From: a virus
Strand: one strand, 5' to 3'
Virus record (IMG/VR): IMGVR_UViG_3300047284_000549
Span: 1-38,798 of that record
Length of the DNA stretch: 38,798 nucleotides
Positions within the stretch are counted from its first letter, which is position 1. Each line of letters starts with the position of its first letter. This document shows positions 2,117 through 38,798 of this stretch, one piece after another. A model generated the notes under the pieces. That model saw only the letters and a list, made by a program, of their open reading frames with translations. It was not told the origin of the DNA and did no database searches. The position numbers and the translations under genes were made by a program.

Positions 2117-2117
2117 A

Positions 2118-2915: not shown

Positions 2916-2921
2916 GGGTTA

Positions 2922-18083: not shown

Positions 18084-18106
18084 TTTGTTACTCTATTTTC
18101 CTTAGT

Positions 18107-18114
18107 TATTTATA
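18107..18114 (-). promoter_or_regulatory. T4-type late promoter TATAAATA before gp8
   Basis: Perfect TATAAATA on the minus strand in the 31-bp gap between the 717-aa gene stop (TAG at 18115-18117) and the gp8 ATG. Expected start about six bases downstream gives a leader of roughly 18-20 nt. It would let gp8 and the genes behind it be transcribed independently of the giant gene. Confidence 0.72.
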
Positions 18115-20268: not shown

Positions 20269-20284
20269 CTATATTCCTCCGAGA

Positions 20285-21169: not shown

Positions 21170-21191
21170 GGTGGTTGTATATTCTCCTTAA

Positions 21192-21199
21192 TATTTATG
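21192..21199 (-). promoter_or_regulatory. Candidate late promoter CATAAATA overlapping the giant-gene stop
   Basis: CATAAATA on the minus strand, one base off the T4 consensus, covering the TAA stop of the giant gene and 23 nt before the next ATG. If used, the transcript would begin within or after the AAGGAG element, leaving that site incomplete. It is therefore weaker evidence than the sites before gp8 and the fibre gene. Confidence 0.35.
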
Positions 21200-24100
21200 T
21201 TTGGTCATAAGTAAAAATAGTATTATCTAGATTTAATTCATCACTATCTAGAGTTGGTGTAGCTCCAGATGGAACATCAGGAACTTGATTGTCCACTTCA
21301 ACTGATGGATAGATGTATCCACTACCAGGATTGGAGATATCAACACGATAAATACCAACTCTTGCTAGTAATTGAGAATCAAATCCAGTCGGTGATAAGA
21401 CTTCAACTGATGGTCTAGAAGTATATCCAGATCCAGGTGAAGTTATTGTTGCTGTATCTAGTCTTCCAGAAATAATTTCAGCAACTGCAGATCCATTTCT
21501 ACCCTTAACTGATCCAGAATATTCAAATGTAATTAGTGAGTTTGAAGACTCAATAACAGCAACTTCACGATTATATTCTTCACCCTCAATGAATATTTCG
21601 TCACCAATCTCTACTGGTGGTACAACAGCAGCCGAGATAACGTCTGCATCGGAACCAATGTACGAGAAAGCAACAAATGAGGATCCAGCACGTGGAATTT
21701 CAGTAAAGGTTATACGAGAACCAACAAGTTTGAATCCAATTCCAGGTTCCTGCAAGACACCGTTCACAGCAACAATAATATTATTTTCTGGTAGAATTAC
21801 ATTGGACTGAACACCAGATGTTACAGTTAATGAATAGAAGGTTCCTGAAAGTTTGAGGTTGAATGAACTTCTTAGTGAATCAAAGTCAAACGAAATATCA
21901 TCTAGTAGTCTTAATTTACCAAGATAATATGAATGGAACTGTGCCCCAGCTGCAGGTGCTTCAGAGAATTGAATATTGTCTGCAAATACAGTATATGCGT
22001 AATCTGCACCAGGTGGCTGTAGAATGCCATTAACAAATACAAGTAGATGACCATCAGGATCTGGGAAATAAGGAGATCCATTATTGGTTGTTAATTTGAA
22101 AGAAGTTAATTGACCATCAAATCCTCTAGAATATCTAGATGCACGGGCAACAACCTCGGCAGATAGTAATACAATTGCTCTAAATCCATAACCAGATATT
22201 AGTTGTGCATTATTTTCAAAGGAACCTTCAACTTCACCAACCCAAATTTTGATCGTAGTTCCAGATTGTTCAATTCTAGTAATTTTTGCAGAAGCTTCAC
22301 TTGGTGTAGTTGTGATTGAAATTAAATTAGCATAGATTTTTGGTTGTAAAGTTCCAGAACGATAAACACCAATAACATTACCAGCAATTTGAGAAGATGT
22401 GTCAAAGTCGGAAGTTTTATTGCCAACTACCATTGTACCAGTTAAGGTATCATATGAAACAATAGTCGCATATTCTCCAGATGGTAAGTTATTAACAATA
22501 ACATCTAACCTATCACCTTGTACAAATGCATCTGTACTATTTCCCGAAGTTACAATTGAACCAGTATCAATTTGCAGTTCTGTAACTGTTGTGGTTCTAA
22601 TGTATTCTCCAATTAGTGGAACTCTAACACCAACAGCATCCATACATGTTAGTAGAACATCAGACTCTGATGAGTAAATTAGATCTGATCTTGTGAATGA
22701 TCCTTCAACAGTTTCTGTATCCAACGTCAATACACCAGAGGTATTGTCAATAATAGATCCTGAGTTATAATTCCATTGTGTAATTATTGCTTGTGATGCA
22801 GATGTTAATGAATAAATTATTTCATTTTCAGAGAATTTACCCATCATTGGTTGTAACATCAGATGATTATCTATGGATGTAATAGTTGCTGTTGCAGTGC
22901 TAGTATCTCCAGTAATAATATTTCCGATTATTAATGTTCCACCAGATACATTAATTAAATCAACATACCCTTCACCTTCAGAATCGATATAGGTTTGATA
23001 TATTGTTGCGGAAATTCCTCCAGTTGCAGCAATGGTTTCTCCCTCAACAAATCTTGGAGGATTGGCTCCAACTCCACCTAATTCAATATAGTATCTTGTG
23101 TAAGTTTCTCTAATTTTAAATTTATTTTGTTGAATTAGTGCAACTTCAGCATATGAAGTTGAAGTATCCCCATATACAAATGCTGATGGTTCCATAGACA
23201 GAGTATATGGTGTTGGGATAGTTCTTATTGCATATGATGGTGATGGCACATTAATTCCTGCATCTCTAGTTTGATTGGTAATTTCTGATGGAGTATCAAT
23301 AATTAATTTAAAGAAGGTGATTAAATTATCAATATAAGTTGATGTAGTTCCAACAACTAAACCAGTTTCAGAATATCTTGGTTGACCAGTAGTTGGTCCA
23401 AGAGCATTCAATGATTGATTAATTGCTCTACCTGCCCAAACTCTAATTCTCTCTAAGTGATATTTTAGATGAACGGGGTTATAACCAGAGAATGCAATGA
23501 AGTTGTAGAAAGCATCCAACCAAGATAGTGCTCTTGCATAAGATTTGGCATTACCATTCGTGATTAAATCATAGATCATATCATTTAGAATTGTTACTCC
23601 AAATGATACAGATCCTGGATATAATGGGTATGCTGCCTTTGTCTCATTATATGCTTCTTGTGTGATATAACTTGTGTTGAAGATTAATAATTTTGCAGCA
23701 CTTCTTCTACTGGTTGATGAGTATTGTGAAGATTCTTCTGAAATTGTGTAAAGTAGTAGATCAAATAAAGTTGAAATCGCAGATGTTACGTTGGCACAAC
23801 CAGATGGATTTTGATTATCTACCCCATCCGCAATTATAGTGAGATCTCTATATGCAGAAGTTGATGTGTATAGAGCAACATATGCTCCACTTGGAGTGGT
23901 AATTGAATTTTTAGAGTATAGTAGATTATTAACTGCTTTTTGTGCAAGTGGTTTAGCAAGTTCTAATGCCTTATGCATTGCAAGTAATTCATCTTCAACA
24001 TACAGAATATTTGTATTTGAATCAATATAATATTCAAAAGCACTTATAGTTGCATTATTACCTCCAGTTAATAGATCAGTGATCATTGCAGGTATTAAGT

Positions 24101-27100
24101 AATCACCCAAATCTCTGATGCATTTTTGTGTGTTTGGATTTGTGAATAGGTCATATGTAACACCACTGGAAGTGTTGGTCCATTTAAAGAATTGTTCAAT
24201 TCCTTCGGCAACTTCTTCAGCAATATATTTCTTGTTGAAGTATAGTAAATTACCAGCATCTCTAAATCTATTACCAGTTGGGGCTAAGATATCAGCAATA
24301 GTATCGCATAGTGAAGTAATTTCATTCGTAACCGAAGTATTGAATGGAGATTCAACAGGAACATTAATAATACTTGAATATTGAACAACAATTGTATCAA
24401 GTAAAATTGAATTTATGATTTCACCGATCTTCTGATATGCATATACGGATTGTAATAATTCCCCACCAATAAATCTCAAAGCACCTGACTTTTCAAGATA
24501 ATATTTTGCAGTATAAACCGTATTATAATTACCACCATTTGTTAAATCATTGATAATTGCATCTACAATATATCCAGCATCTCTTGCACAAATGTTAGTT
24601 CCATCTTGTCCACCTGCTTCATCACCTGGAATTAGTAACAGTGGGTATCTTGCTTTCAAGTAACCAACCATTTCGGAAATGATGAAATCTTTATTTTTGG
24701 TAATGTACTCTGCAGCATCTTTAAATTCTTGTCTAGCAGGATCGATTGCTTCTACTGTTAGTTGCTTACTGATTGGATCAATTTGTCCAACAATTCCAAC
24801 GGATGTTCTTAATGAATCATATGATGCAGAAACATACGATTCTGGATAGATGTCTGTTGTTCCATTTAATCCATTAAAGTGGAATGATACAATATCAGCA
24901 GAATCATCTTCAAATTCTTCATTTTCTGGTGTAAATGTTGCAAGATATCTTGCCGTCATTGATAATCTGAAATCATCCATCAATCCACGGAAACCAGTGT
25001 TATCTTGATAGGTAGATCCAATTCTCAACGTTTGACCAATATAATTATTGGTATCCGCATATGTCTGAGTCTGTAAGACACCACCAATATACATTTTGGT
25101 AGTTCCAGACTTTCTAACCACAGCAATATGTGTCCATGTATTCACAGGAACAGTTGTATTTGATGTAATTCTAGAAGAACCATTTGTATAGAAAACTAAT
25201 TGATTTAATGTATTAAAATATAGTGTTGGTACAACTTGAGCAGTTGAACCAGTTCTCATATCGAGTAGGTATTGTGTTGTTGCATTTACTGTTTTGTAAA
25301 TCCACATCTCCAGAGTGAAGTCATTAGTACCAAGATCTAATTTCTCTGAATTATCAATCTTAATATTATTTGTTCCAGTGTTACTTACACCAAATGCTGC
25401 AGCAGATAGACCGAACTTACAATCATATGCTGGTTGTGTTGCAGTTGGAACTGTCTTAGTTGAAATAATATCATCAAGAGTTTGCCATAGTGTATTAATA
25501 GTCGAAGCAACGTTGGCACAAGTTGGATTTGAAGAATCAACAGTTAGTGTTGGATCTGTTGCTGGAGTTAAGATGGTATACTTTGCATAATTTAAAGTAA
25601 ATGTTGCATCTCCAGTGCCTGCTGAGGCAGGATTCTGATTCATAACTAAAGTTGTTCCATCGGTAATTGAAACAATCTTAGTGTCTGCACTAAATCCAGT
25701 TCCAGTGATATCCATTCCTTCTACAAGACCAACAGTGCTTGAAACTGTTAAAGTTGTAGAAGATGAAGTTCTTACCGTGCTTGGAAGAGTAACAGTGAAG
25801 TTTCTCATCGCAGCAATCATTAGATCTCTGGCATATTTAAATGCAGCACGAGACTCATTCTCTTCACCAAGAATATATTGAATATTTCCATTACCATCTA
25901 CATAGAAATCACCTGCATTTACTGTTGCTGAATTTCCACCATATTGTAAATCAAATTTAATTGCGTCGATGATATAACCAAGATCTCTCTTGCATGTAGT
26001 TTCACCTGGTGAGAATTCACCAACGTTTAATGTTGGTAGTGAATTTATATTTCCTGCAGTAATAGAAGTTGTTAAAATAGCAAATAATGTATCAATAGTC
26101 GTTCTGACATTTGCACATGAGTTTGGATTAGTATTTGATACTGTTCCTGATGATGGATTTGGATCGGCAATAATTGTTAAATCTTTTACTGATAATTGAT
26201 TTGTTACTGCCTGCTTACATAGATCTCTTGCTTGATTGAATGCATATACTGATTCTACTTCTTCTCCAACTAATCCATTGGAAATTGGAACACCATTATT
26301 GAAATAGTATTCGGTTGCCATTCTTGTCCACTTATTTCCACCGTCATATAAGTCCTGAGCAATTGCTAGGACAACATAACGAAGATCTCTCTTACATTTT
26401 GTTGGATTTGGATTTGTGAATGCTGGATATTGTGTTGCAATAGACGCAAATGCAGTTGCGACAATATAGTCAATATTTGCACGGATTAAATTAGCACCAT
26501 CTTTATAACGATATGAAGATGATGGTGAGTTTGGATAGTAGAAATCTGGATACTTTTTAGCAATATATCCAATCACCTCTTCCTTGATTAACTCACGGTT
26601 TGCTTCAATTCTATCTGCGGCATCTAGATATCTAAATTCTGGTCTAGATACTAGACGAACTTTTGGTGTTCCAACATTTGTCACATCCCAGTTTACTAGT
26701 GTTTCACCTGAAGTGAATGTACCAGTTGGTGGTTTAATGTATAGATATGAATTTGCTGAGTTTACACCAATAATATCTGCATAGGCACCACTGGTCCTTC
26801 CTTTGATTCTATAATCTGGGAAGAATGTCCCCTTTGATTTATTTTTGTAAATAATTTTTCTAGATCTTACAGTTTCACCAATTGTAAATGCACCATCAGT
26901 AATGGTAATTCCAGAGATTGCTGAAAGACTTGGTTCTGGGGAATTTGTTAAACATGCAGTTAGAATTGCGATTAGTGTATCAATATTTGCTCTAATATCT
27001 GCACATGAATCAGGACTGGTGTTCGATCCAGTAGCTGCATCTGCAATGATAGTTAAATCAGTTTGTGCACCAGGGATAGTTAACGTATTCGTTACTGCCT

Positions 27101-30100
27101 GCTTCATGTAGTTTCTTGCCTGGTTAAATGCGTATACAGAAGGCACCAACTCATTGCTGAGACTTCCTGCACCAGAACCCTCAAAATATGCTTTGGTTGC
27201 CACGTACATGTTTGCATTTCCACCAGACACTAGATCATTGGATACTGCATCAATGATATAACCCAAATCTCTCCTGCAAAGTGTATCACTATTGTTTGGG
27301 AAATCAAAATCTGGATATTGTGTTCCAATGTCAACAATCACTTTATTAATAATTGCTGCCTTATTCAATTGAATTAGTTTTTTAGCATCATATGCTCTAT
27401 GATTAACTGGAGGTACAGCATTTACATAACTGATTTTTGTATTTCTGATATAATCACCAGAAGACCAGGTTCCAGTTGAATTATCATAAACTAAGTTGAT
27501 ATTTTGTGCGTATTCTGATAGTGGGAAATTCTGGTTGACAAATTGTACATAATTATCGATCTTGGATGCACCAATAATAGTCTTACTGATATCATCAACA
27601 ATCGTGTTGGGGTTTTGTGGTAGTGGTAGTCTCTCATAAATCATACCAAAGAATGTTGATCCTGGGTTAATCTCCAATCTAGAAACAATCTGATTGGTTG
27701 ATGGATCACGATATGGATTTAGTTTAGTAATCTTACCGACAATTGAAGTCTCAGCACTGATGAAATAGTCATTTAGTTGTAATTCGAATAGACCTGTTTC
27801 AAATTCTGATGTACCACTTGTTCTACTGATAACTAGTTTATTAGTAGGTGATCCTAAATTCCATGCACCAGGATTTGGATATGGTAAAGATGCAATCGAT
27901 CCTGTTGTTAGTGGAGTTGTTACAATAGCAATTAGAGTATCAATTGCTGCCTTAACATCTGAACAGTTATTTGGATTTAGGTTTGTATTTGTATTTGGAT
28001 TTGCTCCACCATTTGTTGCTAGAACTCTATCTGGTAGAATGTCTACATCTTTTGTTGGTAGTTGATTGGTAATTGCTTCTTTGCATAGATCTCTCAATCT
28101 CTGGAATGCGAAGATTGATTGTACTTCTTCACCGACCAATCCATTAGAAATTGGACTTCCATTACTGAAGTATGCAGAGATTGCAGCAACAATATTCGAG
28201 TTTCCTCCACCCCTGATGTCGTCAATTAATGCATCAATGATATATCCAAGATCTCTCTTGCACTTATCATTTGCACCTGCTCCCCCAGGAACCACGAAAG
28301 ATGGGAATTCTGCCTGCATATCATTGAATGCAGTTTGGATGATATATTCTCTGTTTGCTGTCATTAAATCAGCAGCATCGGAGAATCTATGAGCAGTTTG
28401 TGCAGTTAAATTATTCCAAGCACTGACTTGAGTTGGATATTTTGGTAATGAACTTGCAAGGTTGATCTCTTCAATAATTGCTGTTTTCTTATTGAGGTTA
28501 GTAATTTGTTCACCAAATAAGAAAATTGTATCCTGAATTACGGTACTTACGGAAGTAATTTGAGCATTCAAACCAGTAGCAGAAGCAATGATGGTCTCAT
28601 TGACTTGGAATGATCCCACAATGTTGATTACATCTAAGTATCCAGTACTACTAGATACAACAGTAGCCGTTGCATTTGTGATAATTCCTCTAATTTGTTG
28701 ATTGATCTCTGGGAAGATTCCAGAAATGTTAGTCAATGAAATTCTCTTAACTGGAATTTGCTCAAATTCAATTTCACGATATACAACAGAAGCTGCTGGT
28801 TTTGGTGGCTCACTGAATTCGATATTACCATTTGCAATGGTATATGACTTTCCTGGAGACTGAACAATACCATTGATCAATATCATTGTCTGTCCAGTGG
28901 TAGCAATAATTTGCTCACCATTGATCTTTAGTGGGAATGAAGTCTTGATACCATCAAACTGGGATGAAATATCATCTAGTTTCTTAACGACAGAAGTTAG
29001 AATTTCCTCAGATGAGGTCAATCTCTTATTTCTGAATAGAACATCAGTATTGCTGAATTCAGTATAGATTGGTTGAGCAGCAGCAAAATTAGTAATTTCA
29101 CTGAAGTTTGTGAATTCAGAAATATCAACTCTCTTAGTGAAATCTGTTGATACTTTTCTTCCAGATAGATCCTTACCACCAGTTAGGTTTAATTGTCCGA
29201 ATAGGTTAAATCCAGCTGGGTGGTTTAGTTTCCTTACGGTATTTCTCCACTGATTAATTGGAATATCACTATTCACAACATAAGAGAAGTCCTGATAGAA
29301 ATAAGAATCTTGGATTTTTTGTACAATTTCTGATGGTTTACCTACGTTATCGATAAACTTACCAGGAGTTTGTGTAACAGGACCAATATTTAGAGTACCT
29401 TTTGCAGAATTGATATTGTCAATAGTTCCACTTGCCTTAGATACTAGACCTGTCACCTTTTCACCAATAATCCATTCACCAGTATAATCGACTAGTTTTA
29501 ATAGTCTAGGACCAATCTGCCAACCATCATTAGTTGATACATATCCAACTGCAGTTGGATTATCTGCATCATTTCCTTGATAGACCTTTTCACCTTGAAG
29601 GAATCTAGATGTCTCTACAATTGCTTCTGCCTTACCACCAAAGACTTCGGTAAGTAGAATTTGTTTTCCAGCACCACTATTCAAGAATGTAATAAACTGA
29701 CCATTTTGTGCATCTTGTAGTGTTAGAGCAATTCTCAATTGATTATCTTCTAATCCATTCACTTCACCAGCAATTGCATAATATGTTTGTCCCTCAACAA
29801 GTGAGGTCAAACCAGCTGAAGATGGTTGTGGTAATTGACCAGCAACGGATCCGAGATCATCAGCACGTAATGAAATTTCAGCACCAGTAGTGATACCATG
29901 TGGGAAGTTGAACTGGAAGTATCCAAGATCGACGTTTACGACATAGTTGAACTCTGATTTTAATGTGACAGTTGGTTCTGAAGAATATCCAGATCCTGGA
30001 TCTTTAACAACGACTTCTTGTAAACGATTATTTTTTACAGTGGCAACAGCAACAGCACCAGTTCCACCACCACCACTAATAACAACAGCAGGTGGTGAAG

Positions 30101-33100
30101 TGTAACCAGAACCAGGATCTGTAACCTTAATCTCAGTAAGAACTGAAGTATTGAATAGTTGAACAACAGTTGGGAAGGTAATTTCTGGCTTCAGAGTGTA
30201 GTCATGTGGATAATCATAACCAAAGTTATTATTCTTCAGTCTCTTAATCTTACCAACTTGAGTTCCCTGTAGGAATACTGATGCACCAGTTCCTTGTGGT
30301 GGGATTATGACATTCAATATCGCACCAGAACCCGATAGTGATGGACCTAGAATTCCAGGAATTGAATCAATATCAATATAACCAGTAGTGTATCCCTTAC
30401 CAGGATCAACTAAATCTACATCAGTAATTGTTCCAGTTACGGGATCTCCACCAAGTTCAACGGTAATATTTACCTTTCCACCTTCACCATCTCCAGAAAT
30501 TGGTACTTCTCTATAAACACCAACCGCATATTCAGTACCACCATTATCAATATCAATCCTATCGATTTGACGATCAGATGCAATATCAGTTACGATAGGT
30601 AGTTTTTTGTAGAAACCACCCTTATTAACTAATTTGATGCTATTGATTGGTCCAGATGCTTTTGTTGAAGTAGTTGAGTATTTTGTGGAATCTAGAATTA
30701 CAGGTCCTTCTGGTTCTCTCTCCAATACAAATCTAAATTGCTTAGATGATGGTGTCGCAGTAATTCTATACTTGCCCTTATATGGAGTGTCTACAACGTC
30801 AATGAAAGAATTAATTCCAACAGGACTATCAGAACCAGTATGTGATGGGTCGAAGTAATATGAGATGTTGGTAACGTCACCAATTGTTTTAAATCTTACA
30901 TAAGGAATAACACCTGGTGGGTCAATACCAGCATTACCATTTCTGGTTATATTGTTGAATGAATACTCAAGTTTGTACTGATTATCCTTAGAGAATGACA
31001 GATAGTATCCAGCATTAGAAGGATCTCCAACATCAAAGATGTATTGGTGACCTCTAACAAATACCAATGATGGATGTTTTGCATAAACTTGTACAGCAGA
31101 AATGCTGCTACTAGTAATTGGATCTAGTGTCGCAACACTTCTCAATCCGTATACATATTCTCTACTATTGATTCTTCTCTTCACAAAGAAGCTACCATTG
31201 TAGCTACCATACAAGAATCCCTCAACGTAGATGATATCACCAACTGAATAATTATGAGCACTGTTTGTTACAATTCCAACTTCATCGGTTCTTGTAATTA
31301 CTGATGCTTTTACAATTTTTCTTAGATTACTAATTAAAGTTACTTTATTAACCGCAGTTAATCCAGTAATAGTTGCAGTCTGATATGTACTATCGAAAGA
31401 AATATTTACATTATTAAATCCAATAGAAACGATATCACCAGGTAGGAACGAAGACCCTGGTTCGGTAGCAACAATTTTTAAAACATAATCATCTGCACTA
31501 AAATTCTTGAATTCGGCATGACCAGATGGAATATCCGAAGTATAATTGGATAATGCAAATTGGAATGTTCCTAAAGTGCCAAAATATGGAACATCGGCAA
31601 ATGTATATGAAAATTCATTGATTGATGCAACATCATCTTTCAATCTAGATGTTGTATTTAAGGTGCCAAATACTTTTCCAATCAATGCATAATTGTCACC
31701 CTTTTCAATAATTGTACCATATGCACTAACAACATCCTGAGCATTTTCTCCAGTACCTTGAATGGTATACCACTGGAGTAATTGCCCAACTTCGAAGTTT
31801 GCATTTTGATTAAACGTAATTTTCTTAATATTGTCTGCCTTTGTTACCAGGGAATCACGTAGATAATATTTCTTAATTACATCTGTAGTGACCTTTAGTG
31901 TTTTACCTGAAGGTGTTGGGATAGTTGCAGTACGTGATGTGAAGTTTGATGTATTTGAAACAAACGTATATACACCAGGAAGGTGTGCAGATACTGCATC
32001 AGAAAAATCTAATAACTGATAACCAGCAGATCCCTGATTGTAGTTGGATAATAATGCTGGATTGTAATCTTCATCAATTGAATAAGTTACATCCGTAATA
32101 TTGATTGAAGATACATTGTATAGATCATTAAAATTATAAGATCCTAGTTTTGTGTGATTGTTATCTAATTTGGTAAGAACGGAAATATCAAATTGAACTG
32201 TAGAGTTGAAATGTAAAAGTAATTTTGTATTGAAGTCTCTGTCAAAAGATGTTGTTGGTGCAACAAAATTTGCATTATATCTTGAGATGTCTTTAGATAA
32301 TCTAAATTCATCAATATTACCAACAAATTCATATTGTCCAGCATAACTTGCTGATGCACCTATTGTCAGTCCAGTTGCATCTGGGGTTGCAGTAGATGTA
32401 CCTGTGAATACAGATATTCCATTTACAAATGCTTTAATTACTGATCCAGTTCTAGACCATGCAACATGAGTCCAAGTATTCAAACTAACTGGAGTGCCAG
32501 AGGTTTGTTCTTGAACAGTTCCATCATAATGAGTTAGATATAGATTTGAACCTGACTTACGTAGACCCCAATACCAATTAACTCCATTTAAAGCACATAC
32601 CATTGAATATGTACCAGATGGTAAAGATGGTACATAAACCCAAGCTTCTAATGTATAGTCACCAGATAGATCAAAATTAGATGCATCAGTAACTGTAATA
32701 TAGTCACCTGCACCATCAAGTAATAATGATGATCCACCAAACATAGATCTTGCTGTACTAATACTTGCATTTCCAAAATATGTTGGGATTACACTATCTG
32801 ATGATGTAGATCCTAAAATAAATGTATCCGATGAACTGTCAACAGAAATCGAAGATCCCTTCCAGGTTTGGTTTACTAAAACTCTAGAATCATTCAGAAT
32901 TTCACCACTGTGTTTAAATTTAACAATATCGACAAATGAATTTGTTGTAGTATCAACAGATACTCCAATATTGATATTATTAAATACATCTATTGCAATA
33001 CCAATGCCTTTGATTGAAGAGAATGTGGTAGCAGTTGGAGAAATTCTCTTAGCCCAAACCAAGTCAGCATAGTTGTTCAAATCAATTCTAATCAGTGTGA

Positions 33101-36100
33101 CTTTCTCAGTGTTTCCAGTAGAATCATTTGTTTCTGTAGCATATACATATAAACTTTCATAGTCATCAATTTCAATTTGTGCATCGATAAATTTATAATT
33201 TGTTGGATTTGGAATTCTTCTACCCCAATCAAAATTGATGTTTACGTTATCATATGATAGCTTACCATAGATAATATCTTCTCCACCAATGATACCTGAG
33301 AAATAAATATCTTCTCCACGGAATATTAAATCTGTTAATTTTTCCTCTTCAGTATCTGTAGTTACTTTTCTCTTCTCAATTACATCACCCAGTTCATTCA
33401 TCAGTACAAACCACATATCATTTCCAGATACAGTGTTGGTATCAGTGTATCCACCCAATGCTAGTAAATCTAAATCTGAAGACCAATCAATTGCAGATGC
33501 ATAGTCTCTTCTAGTTGATCCAGAAATTCCAGCTAATTCTTTCTGCCACTGAATTACTCCATCTGGTTGATTTTGTGCGTTAAATCCCGAAATATATTTT
33601 GCAACTAAAATATCAGGATTGTATGTAAGATTGATCGTATTTTGTGAGGTTTCACCCACAACATAAATTGTATGTGGATTTGTCTCAACGACAACTAATC
33701 TCTTCCATACAGCATCTTTAGCACCAGCTGCTGGATTTATTGGAGTTAATGTTCTCTTCCAGATTAATCTTCCATCATTATTGAACTTAGCTAGGACTGC
33801 TGCTTTATCAATACTCTGAACGATTCTACCGCAAGCATAGATACTGCGATCTTCAGCAACATAAGAATCAAACCATTCAACTTTTCCACCAATTGAGTCG
33901 AATTCTGTTACAAAATAATTTGCTTTTTTGTAAATTTGAGGATGAGTAATTCTAATCTGAGGTGGATTTTCAACATCGTATCCATTACCTGAATTGATAA
34001 TATCGACAGTTTTTACTCTTCCTTGATCTTCAAGATTTAATTGGATTACTGCATCTTGTCCAGAATCGGAAATTAATTCATACTGTGGTGGAATATCAGA
34101 ATTGTATCCAATTCCCTCTTGGATTACTGAAACGGTTTCTAATCCAGCAACAGTCTTAACCTTAAAGTTTTTGAAATTTGTATCTAAGGCTGGTTCTGTA
34201 TCAATAATTACAGTATCTCCGATAGTCAGACCATGATCATCTTCTGTAGTAATAGTTGCAATTGTTTCATTATTTACATATGATGATGTGTAACTTAAGA
34301 TTTTGGATCCCTGAACAGTTTCTACTTTTGCTGAAGCACCAAATCCATCAGTACCTGTATTGTCAAAAGTAACTTTATCATTAACTTTGTAATTGATACC
34401 TGGGTTTTCAATCACAAAACCATCAATTTGAGCAGACTCAAATTTAGTTGTTGTCTCTACTTCAATATCAACTTTTGATTCAATATCAACTTTAGGGAAA
34501 TAATCAAAAATTTCAAGAGATTGTTCTTCAGTTAATTCAAGAACTTCGAGTTCTTCAGGGTTTGAAATTACACCATCGTTGTCAGAATCTTGAATTTCGA
34601 AAATAATAGTTTCACCAGCTTCTGTTGTGATGAAATCAGTTCTGGAATTTGGCTGTCTTTCAGTATCAATATCTACATTTTCATATGGATCCCTATAACG
34701 AACAACATCTTTAGGGATGCTGAATTGAACAGCATCTTGTGATAGGTTCCAAGTATCTGGTGATGAATAATATTGTGGACCAATAATGTATGGATACTGT
34801 GGACTACCCTGTGCAGATGCATCAATTGTCACAAAATATGCATATGTTCCTGTTGGATATTCTGGTGTCTTGCAGAATCTTCCATTATATTCATCTAAGT
34901 CTCCATATCCAAAAGAATATTGATAGTCTTGTACGAAAGAACCTGCTTCATACAATTCTAATGGAGGACCATCAATTCTAGATGGTAATGGATTTGTATC
35001 AGCATTGTATACAATATTTGTCTTTAACTTATATGAAGTACGCATTCTTCGAACACCTTTCGAAGAATCCGTTGGATCTGTATATCCATATGGACCATAA
35101 ATTGGGTTACCATCAAATGCCCATCCAAGAATAGGTGAGTGTAAGAAAGTGCCTTCATTTTCCTGAATTACTTGTTCAGAATTTTTGAATACGTTATCTC
35201 CAAGAACATATCTTAATGTTTGAGGATTTGAAACGTGAGCATATTCACCACCGTATTGAGTATTATAACCCGCAAATACATAACCACGTGCAGTATCATA
35301 CTTATCACTTAATTGATACTCAAGATCATATAACCAGTTGAATACATTGGTCTGGAAAATTGCTCCTTCTCCAATCGATTCAAGTCTAATTGTCGTAATG
35401 CCTTGAGTATAACCAACACCTCTATTGGTGATTTGGATGCCAATTACCTTTCCTTTATCTTCTCCAACTGTACCAATAACTGCCTTTGCCTTAGCACCGA
35501 AACCATCACCATTAATATAAACGTTAGGTGCTGTTGTATAACCTTCTCCAGCACTAATAACAGCAATCGAAACTACCCTACCATTGATGATGATTGGTTG
35601 TGCTTCTGCACCTGATCCAGAACTCAATACTGCTGTTGGAACGGAAGTATAATCAGAACCTGATGAAATTAGATTAACTTTTGAAATAGGTCCTCTAACC
35701 GATGCTAAAGCAGTAGCACCATAACCACCACCTCCAGAGATGCTGATAATTGGTTCTGAAGTGTACCCCTCACCTGGGGAGTCCACAAGGATCTGAGTAA
35801 CTACCCCATTCGTTACAATTGCTCTAGCAGTTGCTCCAGCACCCCCACCACCAACAATTGATACAAGAGGGGAATCGGTATAACCACTACCACCATTGGT
35901 TACCTCGAAGGCAGTGATAGAACCATTAACGGTTACTGTTGCTTCTGCTCCAGTACCATTCCCCCCAACAAAAGTTAGAATAGGTGGATTTGCTGCATCA
36001 TAACCTACACCAGGATTGGAGATATTTACCGAAATAACACCACCATAAGTAACATAATCATTTGATTTAAATGACCAGGCAGAAACACCGTTAACCCAAG

Positions 36101-38798
36101 TTGCAATTGGTCCTGAAGAAATCTCCTTTCTAACTGAAGTGGTGTTTGGTACTAATGGGAATCTATTTAATTTTCTTTGGTTTCCAGGAATTAGGGCTGA
36201 ATTAACAAATGGTCCAATTCTGTAATTTGGAATTCCAGTCGATGCAACATATGCGTATTGATCATTGAAAAATGTATTTTGAATATTTGTAGTGAATTTG
36301 CTAATGATTCCATCAATAGCATTTTCATCACTTTTCCCTTTATTGAGGTCAACTGAAATTAGAATATTTCCTTGTGGTGAGAACTCTGCAGACTGTGGAA
36401 GAACATAAGAAAATACGGTGTCACTAATACGAGAAGATACTTCAAACGTTCCGTTATACACAATTGGGTTTGCACCGTAAACTGTCACCTGATCTCCAAC
36501 TAAGAGACCATGTGGATTTGTGCAAGTAACAGTGGCAGTCTTATTGTTAATACCACCAGGAACAATAGTATCAATTTGTACTAATTTTTTGACATTATAT
36601 AACCAACTTGTAATTTTTTCATTATCTGTAGTTGCACCTAATTTAGCAACAGATAACTTATCACCTGGTAGATAGTAAGATCCAGAGTCAATTAATTCTG
36701 TGGTTGCTGCCTCAGCAATACCAACAATTTTTAATACAACTTCATCCTCTAATCCTCTATTTGCATAGACAAAGATATCGGATGATACTTCAGTACCAGC
36801 ATCCCAATCTTCATTTACATTATTTTTTGAACGAGTACACTCCAAAAACTGGTTCAGTGTTTTTTCTTTATATTGAACATATTCTACAGTATCTTCTGGA
36901 CCACCAATAATGACGATACCATTTCTTTCTGGCCATCCTAATGTAGAGTCAACAGTAATAATATTACTTTCTGCTGTTAATGATTCAACTAATCTTGTTC
37001 TGTATGGAATTACAAATGATCCAGTTTTTGTTTCCTCAGAGATGGAAATTTCATAAATCTGAGTATCACCAACATAAATTGAAATTACGTTTTCAATCAA
37101 TGCTGTTGCAAATTTAACATTCAGATCAACAGCATCATCATATTGATACAAAACGGAGTTTACTAGATTATTAGGATTGCCACTAACTAGTTTTGCTCTG
37201 AGAATCGTATCTACAGACCAAGTTGCTGCAGATGGTTTAAAGATTTCATCTTTAGGGTAATTAATATCAACGTCTTGTCCATATAATACTTTGAACAAGT
37301 ATTCTAAAGCATTTTTGGTTCCCTTAGATAGGTAAAATTCCTTGATTGTCTTTACAATCTGAGAAGCATTTACTTGAGTGTAATCAATTAATAGATCAGG
37401 TAAATACTGTCTAGTGAATTTCTCAAAAATTTGTAGTAAAAATAGAGAATCTAAGTTAACAACAGTAGAACCAGCAGCATGTTGTCTAGATCTTGATGTT
37501 AACTCACTTGAGAATACTTGCTCACCATTTTGATCATAGCTAACTACTCCACTGACACCACGGCTGCATCCATTAAAGGATGATGACTCGTAGAGACCAT
37601 TTCCTGCGTGAATAATAGTAAAACCTGTTATTTCACCAACTCCAACATCAGCTGATGCTTTTGCCTCTGGAGGTGGAGAAATAAAGACAGTTGGTGGTTC
37701 GTCTGCAGAATAACCACTACCAAATGAAGTAATGTTAATATCAGTGATAGTTCCATTGAAAATAGTTGCTGTTGCTGTTGCACCAGTTCCACCATAAGGG
37801 ATGCCACTAATATCTTTTCTATTGTCTACAATATAAACTGATGGTGGGTCAACATATCCACTTCCACCAGTTAATAGATCAATATTAATGACACTGCCAT
37901 TGTTAACAGTTACGTCTAAGATTTGTGCTCCTACTGGATCAACAATTCTAACTCTAGGTTCAAATGTATATCCATTTCCTCTGGATAGAACAACAAAACC
38001 AGATACTTGCCCATCAGTCAATTCTGCACGAAGAACAGCAGGGTTGCTTCCCTCTTCAGTTGGTGAATCAATATAAATTAATGGTGCAGTAGTATATCCA
38101 GATCCACCATCCAATATTTCTAAACTACCAGAGATAATTTTTCCATCACCATCAATTAATGCTTTTGGTGTAATTTTTGCACCACCTGCATTTATAAATT
38201 TAACTTTAGGTGGGGTTAAATATCCAGAACCACTATTTAATAGATTGATTTTTGTGATTGAACCAGTTTCATCATCAACAATAGCTTCTGCTACAGGAAG
38301 AGTTCCATTTTCTGATGGTTCAGTAAATGAAATTCTAGGTGGATTTTGACTGGTGTAACCACTTCCACCACTGAGTAAGTTCAGTGATTTTACACCATCG
38401 ATTAATGCGACAGCAGCACCACCAGAACCATCTCTTTCATTCGGTGAAAGGATTGTAACTCTTGGTGTGAAATTTATATCGTAACCCGATCCATTATTTT
38501 TTACAATAATATCAACTAAATTTCCATTTTCAATTTTTGATACAGCCGATGCTCCTGAACCCACTTCCTTTGCAGTGTATTCAATCGACCTGACATATAA
38601 CTTATGTCCAGGTGCTGGAAGTTCAGTTAACTGAACTTCATTTTTTTCATTGAAAGTGAAATCGACATATGGATCTAACTGAACTCCATTTAAAGTTACG
38701 ATTGAGAGAATCTCAGACCTTAAAATATATTCAGCTCCATTTAAAGTTGCTGGATAATTTTTTTTGCCTTGAACACAAGTAACTTCATCTAAACCTTG
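21195..38798 (-). CDS. Giant modular virion protein, at least 5,867 aa, 5' end outside the window
   Basis: The frame is open from the stop at 21195 to the window edge without a stop; the first visible residues are QGLDEVTCVQGKKNYP. Modules in order (visible residue numbers): LNGVQLDPYVDFTF unit (~34-70); GSGY cluster (~80-390); a helical region FLLQIFEKFTRQYLPDLLID, then VKTIKEFYLSKGTKNALEYL and FKVLYGQDVDINYPKDEI (~450-550) that resembles wedge/tail-protein-I-type baseplate proteins such as T4 gp7; second GSGY cluster (~925-1140); YHYH domain (~1212-1367); EF-hand-like loop (~1404-1416); beta-propeller-like region (~1622-2000); LamG (~2007-2202); third GSGY cluster (~2717-2950); helical cysteine repeats (~3460-5133) interrupted by a second LamG (~4458-4645); fibre-type NGVLQEPG units; final GSGY pair. 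It lies ahead of gp8, where T4 has gp6/gp7. Inferred: baseplate-attached adhesive or scaffold protein. Confidence 0.85.
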   Translation of the reverse strand, partial: QGLDEVTCVQGKKNYPATLNGAEYILRSEILSIVTLNGVQLDPYVDFTFNEKNEVQLTELPAPGHKLYVRSIEYTAKEVGSGASAVSKIENGNLVDIIVKNNGSGYDINFTPRVTILSPNERDGSGGAAVALIDGVKSLNLLSGGSGYTSQNPPRISFTEPSENGTLPVAEAIVDDETGSITKINLLNSGSGYLTPPKVKFINAGGAKITPKALIDGDGKIISGSLEILDGGSGYTTAPLIYIDSPTEEGSNPAVLRAELTDGQVSGFVVLSRGNGYTFEPRVRIVDPVGAQILDVTVNNGSVINIDLLTGGSGYVDPPSVYIVDNRKDISGIPYGGTGATATATIFNGTITDINITSFGSGYSADEPPTVFISPPPEAKASADVGVGEITGFTIIHAGNGLYESSSFNGCSRGVSGVVSYDQNGEQVFSSELTSRSRQHAAGSTVVNLDSLFLLQIFEKFTRQYLPDLLIDYTQVNASQIVKTIKEFYLSKGTKNALEYLFKVLYGQDVDINYPKDEIFKPSAATWSVDTILRAKLVSGNPNNLVNSVLYQYDDAVDLNVKFATALIENVISIYVGDTQIYEISISEETKTGSFVIPYRTRLVESLTAESNIITVDSTLGWPERNGIVIIGGPEDTVEYVQYKEKTLNQFLECTRSKNNVNEDWDAGTEVSSDIFVYANRGLEDEVVLKIVGIAEAATTELIDSGSYYLPGDKLSVAKLGATTDNEKITSWLYNVKKLVQIDTIVPGGINNKTATVTCTNPHGLLVGDQVTVYGANPIVYNGTFEVSSRISDTVFSYVLPQSAEFSPQGNILISVDLNKGKSDENAIDGIISKFTTNIQNTFFNDQYAYVASTGIPNYRIGPFVNSALIPGNQRKLNRFPLVPNTTSVRKEISSGPIATWVNGVSAWSFKSNDYVTYGGVISVNISNPGVGYDAANPPILTFVGGNGTGAEATVTVNGSITAFEVTNGGSGYTDSPLVSIVGGGGAGATARAIVTNGVVTQILVDSPGEGYTSEPIISISGGGGYGATALASVRGPISKVNLISSGSDYTSVPTAVLSSGSGAEAQPIIINGRVVSIAVISAGEGYTTAPNVYINGDGFGAKAKAVIGTVGEDKGKVIGIQITNRGVGYTQGITTIRLESIGEGAIFQTNVFNWLYDLEYQLSDKYDTARGYVFAGYNTQYGGEYAHVSNPQTLRYVLGDNVFKNSEQVIQENEGTFLHSPILGWAFDGNPIYGPYGYTDPTDSSKGVRRMRTSYKLKTNIVYNADTNPLPSRIDGPPLELYEAGSFVQDYQYSFGYGDLDEYNGRFCKTPEYPTGTYAYFVTIDASAQGSPQYPYIIGPQYYSSPDTWNLSQDAVQFSIPKDVVRYRDPYENVDIDTERQPNSRTDFITTEAGETIIFEIQDSDNDGVISNPEELEVLELTEEQSLEIFDYFPKVDIESKVDIEVETTTKFESAQIDGFVIENPGINYKVNDKVTFDNTGTDGFGASAKVETVQGSKILSYTSSYVNNETIATITTEDDHGLTIGDTVIIDTEPALDTNFKNFKVKTVAGLETVSVIQEGIGYNSDIPPQYELISDSGQDAVIQLNLEDQGRVKTVDIINSGNGYDVENPPQIRITHPQIYKKANYFVTEFDSIGGKVEWFDSYVAEDRSIYACGRIVQSIDKAAVLAKFNNDGRLIWKRTLTPINPAAGAKDAVWKRLVVVETNPHTIYVVGETSQNTINLTYNPDILVAKYISGFNAQNQPDGVIQWQKELAGISGSTRRDYASAIDWSSDLDLLALGGYTDTNTVSGNDMWFVLMNELGDVIEKRKVTTDTEEEKLTDLIFRGEDIYFSGIIGGEDIIYGKLSYDNVNINFDWGRRIPNPTNYKFIDAQIEIDDYESLYVYATETNDSTGNTEKVTLIRIDLNNYADLVWAKRISPTATTFSSIKGIGIAIDVFNNINIGVSVDTTTNSFVDIVKFKHSGEILNDSRVLVNQTWKGSSISVDSSSDTFILGSTSSDSVIPTYFGNASISTARSMFGGSSLLLDGAGDYITVTDASNFDLSGDYTLEAWVYVPSLPSGTYSMVCALNGVNWYWGLRKSGSNLYLTHYDGTVQEQTSGTPVSLNTWTHVAWSRTGSVIKAFVNGISVFTGTSTATPDATGLTIGASASYAGQYEFVGNIDEFRLSKDISRYNANFVAPTTSFDRDFNTKLLLHFNSTVQFDISVLTKLDNNHTKLGSYNFNDLYNVSSINITDVTYSIDEDYNPALLSNYNQGSAGYQLLDFSDAVSAHLPGVYTFVSNTSNFTSRTATIPTPSGKTLKVTTDVIKKYYLRDSLVTKADNIKKITFNQNANFEVGQLLQWYTIQGTGENAQDVVSAYGTIIEKGDNYALIGKVFGTLNTTSRLKDDVASINEFSYTFADVPYFGTLGTFQFALSNYTSDIPSGHAEFKNFSADDYVLKIVATEPGSSFLPGDIVSIGFNNVNISFDSTYQTATITGLTAVNKVTLISNLRKIVKASVITRTDEVGIVTNSAHNYSVGDIIYVEGFLYGSYNGSFFVKRRINSREYVYGLRSVATLDPITSSSISAVQVYAKHPSLVFVRGHQYIFDVGDPSNAGYYLSFSKDNQYKLEYSFNNITRNGNAGIDPPGVIPYVRFKTIGDVTNISYYFDPSHTGSDSPVGINSFIDVVDTPYKGKYRITATPSSKQFRFVLEREPEGPVILDSTKYSTTSTKASGPINSIKLVNKGGFYKKLPIVTDIASDRQIDRIDIDNGGTEYAVGVYREVPISGDGEGGKVNITVELGGDPVTGTITDVDLVDPGKGYTTGYIDIDSIPGILGPSLSGSGAILNVIIPPQGTGASVFLQGTQVGKIKRLKNNNFGYDYPHDYTLKPEITFPTVVQLFNTSVLTEIKVTDPGSGYTSPPAVVISGGGGTGAVAVATVKNNRLQEVVVKDPGSGYSSEPTVTLKSEFNYVVNVDLGYFQFNFPHGITTGAEISLRADDLGSVAGQLPQPSSAGLTSLVEGQTYYAIAGEVNGLEDNQLRIALTLQDAQNGQFITFLNSGAGKQILLTEVFGGKAEAIVETSRFLQGEKVYQGNDADNPTAVGYVSTNDGWQIGPRLLKLVDYTGEWIIGEKVTGLVSKASGTIDNINSAKGTLNIGPVTQTPGKFIDNVGKPSEIVQKIQDSYFYQDFSYVVNSDIPINQWRNTVRKLNHPAGFNLFGQLNLTGGKDLSGRKVSTDFTKRVDISEFTNFSEITNFAAAQPIYTEFSNTDVLFRNKRLTSSEEILTSVVKKLDDISSQFDGIKTSFPLKINGEQIIATTGQTMILINGIVQSPGKSYTIANGNIEFSEPPKPAASVVYREIEFEQIPVKRISLTNISGIFPEINQQIRGIITNATATVVSSSTGYLDVINIVGSFQVNETIIASATGLNAQITSVSTVIQDTIFLFGEQITNLNKKTAIIEEINLASSLPKYPTQVSAWNNLTAQTAHRFSDAADLMTANREYIIQTAFNDMQAEFPSFVVPGGAGANDKCKRDLGYIIDALIDDIRGGGNSNIVAAISAYFSNGSPISNGLVGEEVQSIFAFQRLRDLCKEAITNQLPTKDVDILPDRVLATNGGANPNTNTNLNPNNCSDVKAAIDTLIAIVTTPLTTGSIASLPYPNPGAWNLGSPTNKLVISRTSGTSEFETGLFELQLNDYFISAETSIVGKITKLNPYRDPSTNQIVSRLEINPGSTFFGMIYERLPLPQNPNTIVDDISKTIIGASKIDNYVQFVNQNFPLSEYAQNINLVYDNSTGTWSSGDYIRNTKISYVNAVPPVNHRAYDAKKLIQLNKAAIINKVIVDIGTQYPDFDFPNNSDTLCRRDLGYIIDAVSNDLVSGGNANMYVATKAYFEGSGAGSLSNELVPSVYAFNQARNYMKQAVTNTLTIPGAQTDLTIIADAATGSNTSPDSCADIRANIDTLIAILTACLTNSPEPSLSAISGITITDGAFTIGETVRSRKIIYKNKSKGTFFPDYRIKGRTSGAYADIIGVNSANSYLYIKPPTGTFTSGETLVNWDVTNVGTPKVRLVSRPEFRYLDAADRIEANRELIKEEVIGYIAKKYPDFYYPNSPSSSYRYKDGANLIRANIDYIVATAFASIATQYPAFTNPNPTKCKRDLRYVVLAIAQDLYDGGNKWTRMATEYYFNNGVPISNGLVGEEVESVYAFNQARDLCKQAVTNQLSVKDLTIIADPNPSSGTVSNTNPNSCANVRTTIDTLFAILTTSITAGNINSLPTLNVGEFSPGETTCKRDLGYIIDAIKFDLQYGGNSATVNAGDFYVDGNGNIQYILGEENESRAAFKYARDLMIAAMRNFTVTLPSTVRTSSSTTLTVSSTVGLVEGMDITGTGFSADTKIVSITDGTTLVMNQNPASAGTGDATFTLNYAKYTILTPATDPTLTVDSSNPTCANVASTINTLWQTLDDIISTKTVPTATQPAYDCKFGLSAAAFGVSNTGTNNIKIDNSEKLDLGTNDFTLEMWIYKTVNATTQYLLDMRTGSTAQVVPTLYFNTLNQLVFYTNGSSRITSNTTVPVNTWTHIAVVRKSGTTKMYIGGVLQTQTYADTNNYIGQTLRIGSTYQDNTGFRGLMDDFRLSMTARYLATFTPENEEFEDDSADIVSFHFNGLNGTTDIYPESYVSASYDSLRTSVGIVGQIDPISKQLTVEAIDPARQEFKDAAEYITKNKDFIISEMVGYLKARYPLLLIPGDEAGGQDGTNICARDAGYIVDAIINDLTNGGNYNTVYTAKYYLEKSGALRFIGGELLQSVYAYQKIGEIINSILLDTIVVQYSSIINVPVESPFNTSVTNEITSLCDTIADILAPTGNRFRDAGNLLYFNKKYIAEEVAEGIEQFFKWTNTSSGVTYDLFTNPNTQKCIRDLGDYLIPAMITDLLTGGNNATISAFEYYIDSNTNILYVEDELLAMHKALELAKPLAQKAVNNLLYSKNSITTPSGAYVALYTSTSAYRDLTIIADGVDNQNPSGCANVTSAISTLFDLLLYTISEESSQYSSTSRRSAAKLLIFNTSYITQEAYNETKAAYPLYPGSVSFGVTILNDMIYDLITNGNAKSYARALSWLDAFYNFIAFSGYNPVHLKYHLERIRVWAGRAINQSLNALGPTTGQPRYSETGLVVGTTSTYIDNLITFFKLIIDTPSEITNQTRDAGINVPSPSYAIRTIPTPYTLSMEPSAFVYGDTSTSYAEVALIQQNKFKIRETYTRYYIELGGVGANPPRFVEGETIAATGGISATIYQTYIDSEGEGYVDLINVSGGTLIIGNIITGDTSTATATITSIDNHLMLQPMMGKFSENEIIYSLTSASQAIITQWNYNSGSIIDNTSGVLTLDTETVEGSFTRSDLIYSSESDVLLTCMDAVGVRVPLIGEYIRTTTVTELQIDTGSIVTSGNSTDAFVQGDRLDVIVNNLPSGEYATIVSYDTLTGTMVVGNKTSDFDTSSQIAGNVIGVYRSGTLQPKIYANLISITTTPSEASAKITRIEQSGTTIKIWVGEVEGSFENNAQLISGYGFRAIVLLSAEVVARASRYSRGFDGQLTSFKLTTNNGSPYFPDPDGHLLVFVNGILQPPGADYAYTVFADNIQFSEAPAAGAQFHSYYLGKLRLLDDISFDFDSLRSSFNLKLSGTFYSLTVTSGVQSNVILPENNIIVAVNGVLQEPGIGFKLVGSRITFTEIPRAGSSFVAFSYIGSDADVISAAVVPPVEIGDEIFIEGEEYNREVAVIESSNSLITFEYSGSVKGRNGSAVAEIISGRLDTATITSPGSGYTSRPSVEVLSPTGFDSQLLARVGIYRVDISNPGSGYIYPSVEVDNQVPDVPSGATPTLDSDELNLDNTIFTYDQT
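21230..21450 (-). repeat. C-terminal GSGY pair of the giant protein
   Basis: Two units close to the C-terminus: TITSPGSGYTSRPSVEVLSP and VDISNPGSGYIYPSVEVDNQ, followed by a short Asp-rich tail. Confidence 0.75.
21655..22045 (-). repeat. Two NGV(L)Q-PG fibre-type units
   Basis: VFVNGILQPPGADYAYTVFA then DNIQFSEAPAAGAQFHSYYL; and VAVNGVLQEPGIGFKLVGSR then ITFTEIPRAGSSFVAFSYIG. Related units lie at about 28770-28900 (LINGIVQSPGKSYTI) and at 38595-38700 (LNGVQLDPYVDFTF) in the same gene, and at about 3460-3540 in the fibre gene (IVDGLISTPTVDYTY). Confidence 0.75.
23400..28420 (-). repeat. Array of about seven helical, cysteine-paired repeats in the giant protein
   Basis: Each unit has: DA-x-x-x-(I/L)-x-x-N-(R/K)-x-(Y/F/L)I-x-x-x-x (helix), YP-x-F, C-(K/R)-RDLGYI(I/V)DA-(I/V)-x-x-DL, GGN, a Y-Y/F-x-x-(G/S) helix, GEE(V)-x-S(V/I)-(Y/F)A(F/Y)-x-(Q/K)-(A/L)R-(D)-L helix, LTIIAD and N-P-x-(S)-C-(A/S)-(N/D)-(V/I)-x-x-x-IDTL. 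The first cysteine of units 1-6 lies near 28262, 27279, 26398, 25994, 24589 and 24122; the second near 27960, 27005, 26112, 25517, 24314 and 23795. A seventh, degenerate unit (ILNDMIYDLITNGNAKSY, near 23,575) has neither. I know of no name for this repeat. Confidence 0.75.
24865..25425 (-). other. LamG/concanavalin-like domain 2, nested in the helical array
   Basis: FGLSAAAFGVSNTGTNNIKI, then LDLGTNDFTLEMWIYKT, VNTWTHIAVVRKSGTTKMYI, TLRIGSTYQDNTGFRGLMDD and FRLSMTARYLATFTPE. This order (DFTLE-W-Y, TWTH-A-VR-SG, LRIG, G-(M)DD-FR-S) is the standard LamG-3/concanavalin-A-like layout, a fold often used to bind carbohydrate or protein surfaces. It lies between helical units 4 and 5. Confidence 0.82.
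29950..30650 (-). repeat. Third GSGY cluster of the giant protein
   Basis: Units include VDLVDPGKGYTTGYIDIDSI, VTDPGSGYTSPPAVVISGGG and VVKDPGSGYSSEPTVTLKSE, plus LVNKGGFYKKLPIVTDI and DNGGTEYAVGVYREVPISGD. The part at 30287-30560 parallels the insertion in gp8. Confidence 0.8.
30740..31100 (-). other. Beta domain with RGHQYIFDVGDPSNAGY start
   Basis: HPSLVFVRGHQYIFDVGDPS, then YYLSFSKDNQYKLEYSFNNI and YVRFKTIGDVTNISYYFDPS. The layout 'P-x-L-x-(F/L)-x-RG-x-x-Y-x-FD-x-(S/G)D-x-SN' followed by a ligand-poor beta region is common in marine cyanophage structural proteins and recalls a cupredoxin-like sandwich. No complete copper-ligand set is evident, so only the fold type is suggested. Confidence 0.45.
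32195..32780 (-). other. LamG/concanavalin-like domain 1
   Basis: FGGSSLLLDGAGDYITVTDA, then FDLSGDYTLEAWVYVPSLPS, LNTWTHVAWSRTGSVIKAFV, GLTIGASASYAGQYEFVGNI, DEFRLSKDISRY and a closing TKLLLHFNS. This is a textbook LamG-3 layout. In phage tail proteins such domains are candidates for surface glycan recognition. Confidence 0.85.
32800..33935 (-). other. Beta-propeller-like region
   Basis: About 380 residues of repeated four-strand-like units: SYVAEDRSIYACGRIVQSID KAAVLAKFNNDGRLIWKRTL; IYVVGETSQNT DILVAKY GVIQWQKEL; LLALGGYTDTNT DMWFVLMNELGDVIEKR; IYFSGIIGGEDIIYGKLSYD; LYVYATETNDSTGNTEKVTL. The G-(x)-(x)-T, then A-K-(F/Y)-x-x-x-G, then W-x-(K/R) rhythm resembles SBBP-type bacterial beta-propeller repeats. 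Likely five to seven blades; the count is uncertain. Confidence 0.6.
34551..34589 (-). other. EF-hand-like calcium-binding loop
   Basis: Residues DSDNDGVISNPEE: acidic or polar at loop positions 1, 3, 5 (Asp, Asp, Asp), Gly at 6, Ile at 8 and Glu at 12, followed by an acidic helix-like segment (LEVLELTEEQSLEIFDYF). The loop fits the EF-hand/dockerin consensus fully. A single loop suggests structural calcium. Confidence 0.6.
34700..35165 (-). other. YHYH domain
   Basis: HSPILGWAFDGNPIYGPYGY, then TSYKLKTN, LYEAGSFVQDYQYSFGYGDL, DEYNGRFCKTPEYPTGTYAY and QYPYIIGP. The GWAFDG-(F/Y/N)PIYGP-(Y)G signature with LDE-x-NGR-x-x-x-TPEYP-x-GTY defines the YHYH family, found in secreted/surface proteins and in large marine cyanophage proteins. 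Function is not established. Confidence 0.85.
35380..36030 (-). repeat. Second GSGY cluster of the giant protein
   Basis: Five to six tandem units: VNISNPGVGYDAANPPILTF, FEVTNGGSGYTDSPLVSIVG, ILVDSPGEGYTSEPIISISG, VNLISSGSDYTSVPTAVLSS, IAVISAGEGYTTAPNVYING and IQITNRGVGYTQGITTIRLE. Period about 36-45 residues, each followed by GGG-x-GA-x-A. Confidence 0.85.
37150..37450 (-). other. Baseplate-wedge-like helical region
   Basis: FEKFTRQYLPDLLIDYTQVN, then IVKTIKEFYLSKGTKNALEY, LFKVLYGQDVDINYPKDEIF. The pattern 'I-x-x-(F/I)Y-x-x-KGT-x-x-(A/S)-x-x-(F/Y)LF(K/R)-x-L(Y/F)G-x-(D/E)V-x-(I/F)-x-YP' is familiar from wedge proteins of T4-like phages (gp7 group) and from tail protein I-like proteins of other myophages. 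It is the best clue that the giant protein is anchored in the baseplate. Confidence 0.55.
37640..38560 (-). repeat. N-proximal GSGY cluster of the giant protein
   Basis: Seven or so units: VKNNGSGYDINFTPRVTILS, LNLLSGGSGYTSQNPPRISF, INLLNSGSGYLTPPKVKFIN, LEILDGGSGYTTAPLIYIDS, VVLSRGNGYTFEPRVRIVDP, IDLLTGGSGYVDPPSVYIVD and INITSFGSGYSADEPPTVFI. This is the most regular stretch of this repeat in the window. Confidence 0.85.

Follow-up and report, generated by a model that had tools for sequence, protein, structure and literature searches.

Phycobiliprotein-like domains with a conserved candidate bilin site in the giant gp7-type baseplate protein of T4-like marine cyanophages

T4-like cyanophages carry a giant gp7 gene, also annotated 'baseplate wedge initiator' (phrog_701; SSZBM1_208 of S-SZBM1, gp7 of P-SSM4). 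The locus described here appears to hold the same gene with the same downstream order, although the modules of the C-terminal third differ among phages and the contig edge truncates the 5' end of the present copy. T4 gp7, a protein of 1,032 aa, shares a short match and the order of the downstream genes with the giant, but it is only about one sixth of the size, and T4 is without the phycobiliprotein-like domain that is our main subject. The nearest cellular counterparts of this domain are the beta subunits of phycocyanin and phycoerythrin (PF00502), with which it is predicted to share the fold of helices B-H, the motif Cys82-x-Arg84-Asp85 and, probably, the second site at Cys153. It differs from them in having no X-Y helices, in standing in tandem or nested within a virion protein, and in being only about 15% identical. 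In phycobiliproteins, the X-Y helices serve alpha-beta and antenna assembly. Phage CpeT (PF06206) belongs to a bilin-attachment family and, among the 30 genomes that we compared, occurs only where the domain occurs; it is a possible partner of the domain and no relative of it. Besides bilin lyase genes, marine T4-like cyanophages have bilin synthesis genes, whose role 'remains a mystery' in the words of one paper (PMC3037559).

The window, that is, the whole stretch of DNA analysed here, is an entire IMG/VR record of 38,798 bases. On its minus strand, the frame at 21195-38798 runs for 5,867 codons without a stop and reads through to the final base. The earliest listed start, GTG 38564, falls within GSGY repeats close to the N-terminus of the translation, and the only start codons short of the window edge are internal. 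A sequence-only reading had described just such a frame, with neither a stop nor a credible start, and had seen in it a single genuine virion gene, cut off where the contig ends, that combines modules of baseplate, adhesion and repeat type. Both points are borne out. The PHROG family phrog_701 (6,136 positions, 'virion structural protein') matches the giant from model position 226 to 6116 across seven overlapping pieces, and single uninterrupted genes are collinear with it in S-SZBM1 (5,056 of 5,867 residues) and P-RSM6 (5,016 of 5,867). The coding claim is therefore beyond chance. The metagenomic source and the missing start might raise the suspicion that the frame is misassembled or is open by chance, but given this collinearity with intact isolate genes and with phrog_701 this is hardly credible, and we reject it.

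The alignments place residue 421 of the frame at position ~638 in the S-SZBM1 protein and ~641 in that of P-RSM6, so that some 217-220 N-terminal residues are missing past the window edge, which puts the full-length protein at an estimated ~6,085 aa. This is ordinary for the group, since isolate genes of the gp7 type span 4,454-8,573 aa (P-RSM6 8,573, P-SSM4 7,312, S-WAM1 6,737, S-SZBM1 6,619, P-RSM4 6,603, Syn33 6,376, MED4-213 4,458 and P-HM2 4,454 aa). A unique size is thus rejected. The sequence-only reading had called the gene very unusual by comparison with T4 gp34 (1,289 aa), the wrong yardstick for cyanophages, in whose T4-like members such genes are standard; it had also overlooked the phycobiliprotein-like domains. 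Two families, phrog_19630 and phrog_18802, match the giant separately, in its N-terminal part and in its C-terminal part, and this suggests that the gene is split in some phages.

By sequence comparison, we identify the giant as gp7, a baseplate wedge protein, and its source as a marine cyanophage of the T4-like type. In addition to the family match of its core (Table 1), a search of PDB sequences with residues 420-620 gave three matches at E<=10, and baseplate wedge proteins of the gp7 kind take the first two places (E 0.0044 and 0.67); in the better of these, residues 486-514 weakly match T4 gp7 residues 733-761. The genes downstream of the giant fit the T4 order, and those upstream fall outside the window. 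The equivalent gene of P-HM2 lies between gp6 and gp8, after gp25 and gp6, and that of S-SZBM1 is preceded by two baseplate wedge genes. Further on, the same strand of the window encodes a phrog_358 protein, a 1,969-aa structural protein, a head-tail adaptor, a head closure protein, a sheath stabilizer and a small terminase. The phrog_358 protein (window 9370-16533; 2,387 aa) matches its family end to end and contains 14 cysteines.

We propose that this gp7 was enlarged by a long C-terminal extension, in which beta repeats are combined with a YHYH domain, a pair of lectin-like domains and a set of seven phycobiliprotein-like domains that are partly nested. The YHYH domain (window 34815-35261) sits inside a baseplate protein. 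GSGY-type repeats are numerous, occurring at window 37500-38798, in many places within 21195-38798 and 18115-20268, and in the gp8-like protein.

Table 1. Coordinates of the giant gene, its domains and the genes that follow it (window positions; residues are those of the truncated frame).
Feature	Position	Strand	Remarks
Giant gp7-type baseplate wedge gene	21195..38798	-	5' end cut by contig; 5,867 codons; phrog_701
gp7 core, residues 405-861	36216..37586	-	phrog_2885 'baseplate wedge subunit', 5.1e-134
YHYH domain, residues 1180-1328	34815..35261	-	Pfam PF14240, 1.2e-30
Concanavalin A-like lectin domain 1, residues 2028-2168	32295..32717	-	PF13385, 4.8e-21
D1, phycobiliprotein-like, residues 3471-3634	27897..28388	-	Cys 3513, second Cys 3612
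D2, phycobiliprotein-like, residues 3800-3956	26931..27401	-	Cys 3841, second Cys 3932
N-terminal half copy, residues 4056-4092 (model 2-38)	26523..26633	-	Read as first half of D4
D3, phycobiliprotein-like, residues 4096-4252	26043..26513	-	Cys 4135, second Cys 4228; nested between the D4 halves
D4, C-terminal half copy, residues 4258-4446 (model 35-154)	25461..26027	-	Cys 4269, second Cys 4427; beta insertion
Concanavalin A-like lectin domain 2, residues 4474-4616	24951..25379	-	PF13385, 2.4e-14 and 1.4e-14 (two overlapping pieces)
D5, phycobiliprotein-like, residues 4690-4842	24273..24731	-	Cys 4737
D6, phycobiliprotein-like, residues 4844-5024	23727..24269	-	Cys 4893, second Cys 5001
D7, degenerate phycobiliprotein-like copy, residues 5029-5175	23274..23714	-	No Cys
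Baseplate wedge / tail fibre connector-like, 294 aa	20285..21169	-	phrog_677
Baseplate wedge subunit, 717 aa	18115..20268	-	phrog_708
gp8-like baseplate wedge subunit, 511 aa	16548..18083	-	phrog_438; gp8 name from T4 gene order

The seven phycobiliprotein-like copies lie within residues 3471-5175. The Pfam model of the family, PF00502 (Phycobilisome), is weak in three window pieces, one scoring 28 bits against a cut-off of 22.2 and two falling below it, and it reaches its curated cut-off in only 2 of 20 genomes. When D1 was compared with PDB sequences (to E 10), all 47 matches were phycobiliproteins or fluorescent proteins of that family. A six-copy profile reached 2.6e-5 at best, and for a 54-copy profile, with a best E of 1.6e-7, the best 60 of 171 matches all belong to the phycobiliprotein family. 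Aligned by hhalign to beta phycocyanin (E 3.2e-6), the phage Cys falls on Cys82; the alignment pairs helices B and E and sets the phage Cys, Arg and Asp on Cys82, Arg84 and Asp85. Cys82, which Arg84 and Asp85 follow, is the bilin-attachment residue of the host phycobiliproteins. Sequence similarity to the host proteins covers only ~60 residues, helices B-E.

Given an alignment of 54 rows, drawn from IMG/VR loci and the window itself, AlphaFold2 modelled D3 with a pLDDT of 92.5 and a pTM of 0.89. All of the 50 matches listed for it by Foldseek are phycobiliproteins or phycobilisome entries, and VIA-align superposes model residues 1-152 on beta-subunit residues 35-177 (Z 17.9, 1.9 A, 133 aligned of 158). 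The N-terminal X-Y helices are absent, the phage domain starting at the equivalent of residue 35, and the tandem copies D5 and D6 abut, leaving no space for them. From the profiles and the predicted structure, we conclude that the phage domain is a phycobiliprotein fold, that is, beta-subunit helices B to H without the X-Y helices. In the open-licence literature searched, we found no description of such a domain in a phage protein, which does not prove that there is none. A pattern search of bacterial genomes, suited to close relatives only, gave no relative of the domain among 95 candidate stretches, and a search of bacterial genomes for S-PM2 CpeT gave 0/7; therefore, we name no host donor.

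From 50 loci, we aligned 313 copies or parts of copies and kept the 159 that cover at least 75% of the model. Every copy with a residue at the Cys column has the Cys (156/156), with CxxD conserved in 155 of these and CxRD in 105; Asn at column 13 is kept in 123/123 copies and the second Cys in 131/148. In the window, six of the seven copies keep Cys-x-Arg-Asp, at residues 3513, 3841, 4135, 4269, 4737 and 4893. As the full model itself favours the motif, we held the motif columns out and rebuilt the model from columns 50-130 only, dropping identical stretches. The held-out model places C..D correctly in 143 of 150 distinct copies, against 1.1% in random stretches of the same proteins, and C.RD in 88 of the 150; C..D is absent from D7 and six other copies. 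For the second Cys, the same kind of test gives a weaker result, the strict pattern being present in 85/152 (identical stretches dropped). Copies that have the conserved Cys and Asp are only 20-74% identical to D3. In the model, Cys133 opens the last helix and residue 152 is aligned to the final residue, 172, of phycocyanin; judging from these ranges, the second Cys (model 133) probably corresponds to phycocyanin Cys153 if the last helix is ungapped.

Matches to the domain fall into three classes: full copies, which begin at model position 1-7; N-terminal halves, most of which end at 30-39; and C-terminal halves, which begin at 23-38. The bracket order in the window is N-terminal half, full D3, C-terminal half D4; S-PM2 has three N-terminal halves, one full copy and three C-terminal halves. 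Several nesting levels are seen in long-frame residues 1118-2231 of L007 and 125-1158 of L024, and five levels with three different insertion points in residues 870-1735 of L021; in residues 376-877 of the L038 long frame, nine N-terminal halves stand in a row before the contig ends. Over 30 distinct strings, a resumed fragment matches the last-opened one in 54 of 67 cases, whereas 2,000 shuffles averaged 27 and never exceeded 41 (matches below 5 bits and repeated token strings were dropped). Read from the sequence, these patterns suggest that copies are inserted in the B-E loop of other copies, just before the Cys, up to five levels deep, and one fold inserted into itself in this way would be an unusual architecture. 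An AlphaFold2 model of the 403-aa nest is less certain (pLDDT 76.9, pTM 0.58), and among the 50 matches listed for it only the inner domain is matched (Z 17.6, 136 aligned). In some of these matches, the range starts in a helix of the N-terminal half, and so the N-terminal half copies may instead supply the inner domain with one more helix at its N-terminus rather than form part of a split outer domain.

A tblastn search with D3 (E<=1e-3) found 359 of 50,697 phage records, of which 358 are cyanobacterial by name (Synechococcus 280, Cyanophage 60, Prochlorococcus 18, Marine 1), and D1 (E<=0.01) found 353 records in the same groups. The gp7 core region is found in 483 records, extending to phages of Sinorhizobium, Agrobacterium, Methylophilales and Pelagibacter, and the T4-type capsid protein in 2,500 records from many hosts. 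Because core and capsid reach other hosts, the domain is an addition limited, as far as seen, to cyanobacterial phages. Some of the other proteins that carry it are annotated as short tail fibre or tail fibre, and it is present in phages of Prochlorococcus, a host that lacks phycobilisomes according to a review (PMC2984593). A 4,971-aa long tail fibre of S-CREM2 has been detected by mass spectrometry (PMC10665884). We searched the S-CREM2 genome for the domain and it is absent, so this detection gives no proof of the domain in virions.

Among 30 complete genomes (28 cyanophages, HTVC008M and T4), the domain is present in 21. CpeT, a T-type lyase, is encoded by 17 of these 21 and by none of the 9 domain-free genomes; at E<=10, P-SSM7 and S-SSM4 are added with scores above the cut-off and ACG-2014f with a weak match, and the domain-free genomes remain at 0/9. 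S-SKS1 has the domain and no CpeT. On a gp23 tree of 28 of the 30 genomes (S-TIM5 gave no gp23 match, and T4 lay outside the gp23 search), the domain needs three changes and CpeT three (one if relaxed); because the domain changes only three times on this capsid tree, independent contrasts are too few to separate its link with CpeT from ancestry. Seven IMG/VR records longer than 100 kb and possibly incomplete, five from 160 capsid-sampled loci (mostly short contigs) and two selected for the domain, include five with the domain, one of which has CpeT. Bilin reductases do not track the domain in 20 genomes (5/13 with it, 2/7 without), and the S-type lyase CpeS is limited to 3 of 37 records, of which two are domain-free. 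In S-PM2 (L051), cpeT (17614-18141) lies upstream of a domain-bearing fibre-type gene (19590-30929), and a 2OG-Fe(II) oxygenase gene separates the two; in the Syn1 record, cpeT (19950-20462) lies upstream of another (21183-33236), so that 0.7-1.5 kb separate the two genes in these phages. Reviews name Cys153 of the beta subunit as the residue that T-type lyases serve (PMC10452541, PMC10254012).

We tentatively prefer the reading that the giant is a gp7 baseplate protein whose phycobiliprotein-like modules bind bilin, although we place it just short of probable. The domains would derive from a cyanobacterial phycobiliprotein, would be positioned on the exterior of the baseplate, and would carry a covalent bilin attached during infection by phage CpeT or a host lyase. 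In its favour are the held-out conservation of C..D, the probable second site, the confinement to cyanobacterial phages and the co-occurrence with CpeT. Points against bilin binding are the Arg, kept in 105/156 copies, the second Cys, kept in 131/148, the PF00502 cut-off, passed in 2/20 genomes, and a fold taken from a predicted structure. The short stretch of similarity to host proteins, the seven copies lacking C..D, the CpeT link that ancestry may account for, the bilin reductases that do not track the domain, and the domain-bearing IMG/VR records and S-SKS1 that lack CpeT also count against it. It is also quite possible that the domains are bilin-free, a host-derived globin-like helical module reused as a rigid spacer or as a receptor-binding module of the baseplate, with Cys and Asp kept for folding. 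The missing X-Y helices, the loss of Arg in one third of copies, the frequent nesting and half copies, and the lectin-like neighbours in the same protein all fit this idea, and apo-domains would still fold as modelled. What folding alone hardly explains is a near-invariant Cys and Asp in copies that have diverged so far from D3. An obligatory disulfide between the two conserved cysteines is unlikely as well, because the second is missing in 15 of the 146 copies that keep the first.

The domains could also act as phycobiliprotein mimics in the infected or lysing cell, capturing bilins or lyases or binding phycobilisome linkers, their location in the virion being incidental. They are seen only in phages of cyanobacteria, several of which carry bilin genes, as mimicry would have it; yet they form part of baseplate and tail fibre proteins and are not free, and they occur in the Prochlorococcus phages, whose host has no phycobilisomes to mimic. 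We consider this improbable.

The preferred, bilin-binding reading can be carried a step further, to a virion that acts as a light sensor, in which bilin-bearing baseplate domains, chromophorylated through the phage's bilin genes and T-type lyase, switch state on illumination and gate adsorption. This seems unlikely to us, but if true, it would explain why P-HM2 fails to adsorb in the dark and why phages of phycobilisome-free hosts keep bilin genes. P-HM2 has six domain matches and CpeT, and S-PM2 also carries the domain. Jia et al. (2010) reportedly described light-dependent adsorption with the host of S-PM2. According to a modelling paper, P-HM2 was unable to adsorb in the dark and the podovirus P-SSP7 could infect there (PMC7112961); another paper credits P-HM2 with light-specific attachment (PMC7852597), and a review lists light-dependent adsorption for several cyanomyoviruses and the freshwater phage AS-1 (PMC2984593). 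A simpler cause of such light dependence would be host physiology, and coccolithoviruses are also reported with a light effect in the modelling paper (PMC7112961). The domain-bearing S-PM2d218 acquired mutations in a chemostat, some among very large genes of unknown function and most in other genes (PMC9910659). Although most mutated genes were others, the large-gene mutations might be as expected of a gene in contact with the host.

A conserved pigment site in a baseplate or tail fibre domain offers a concrete candidate for the protein substrate of the phage bilin genes. Two questions thereby become testable, whether the virion is pigmented and whether the pigment gates adsorption. The domains may thus bear on light sensing by cyanophages or on the use of their pigment genes.
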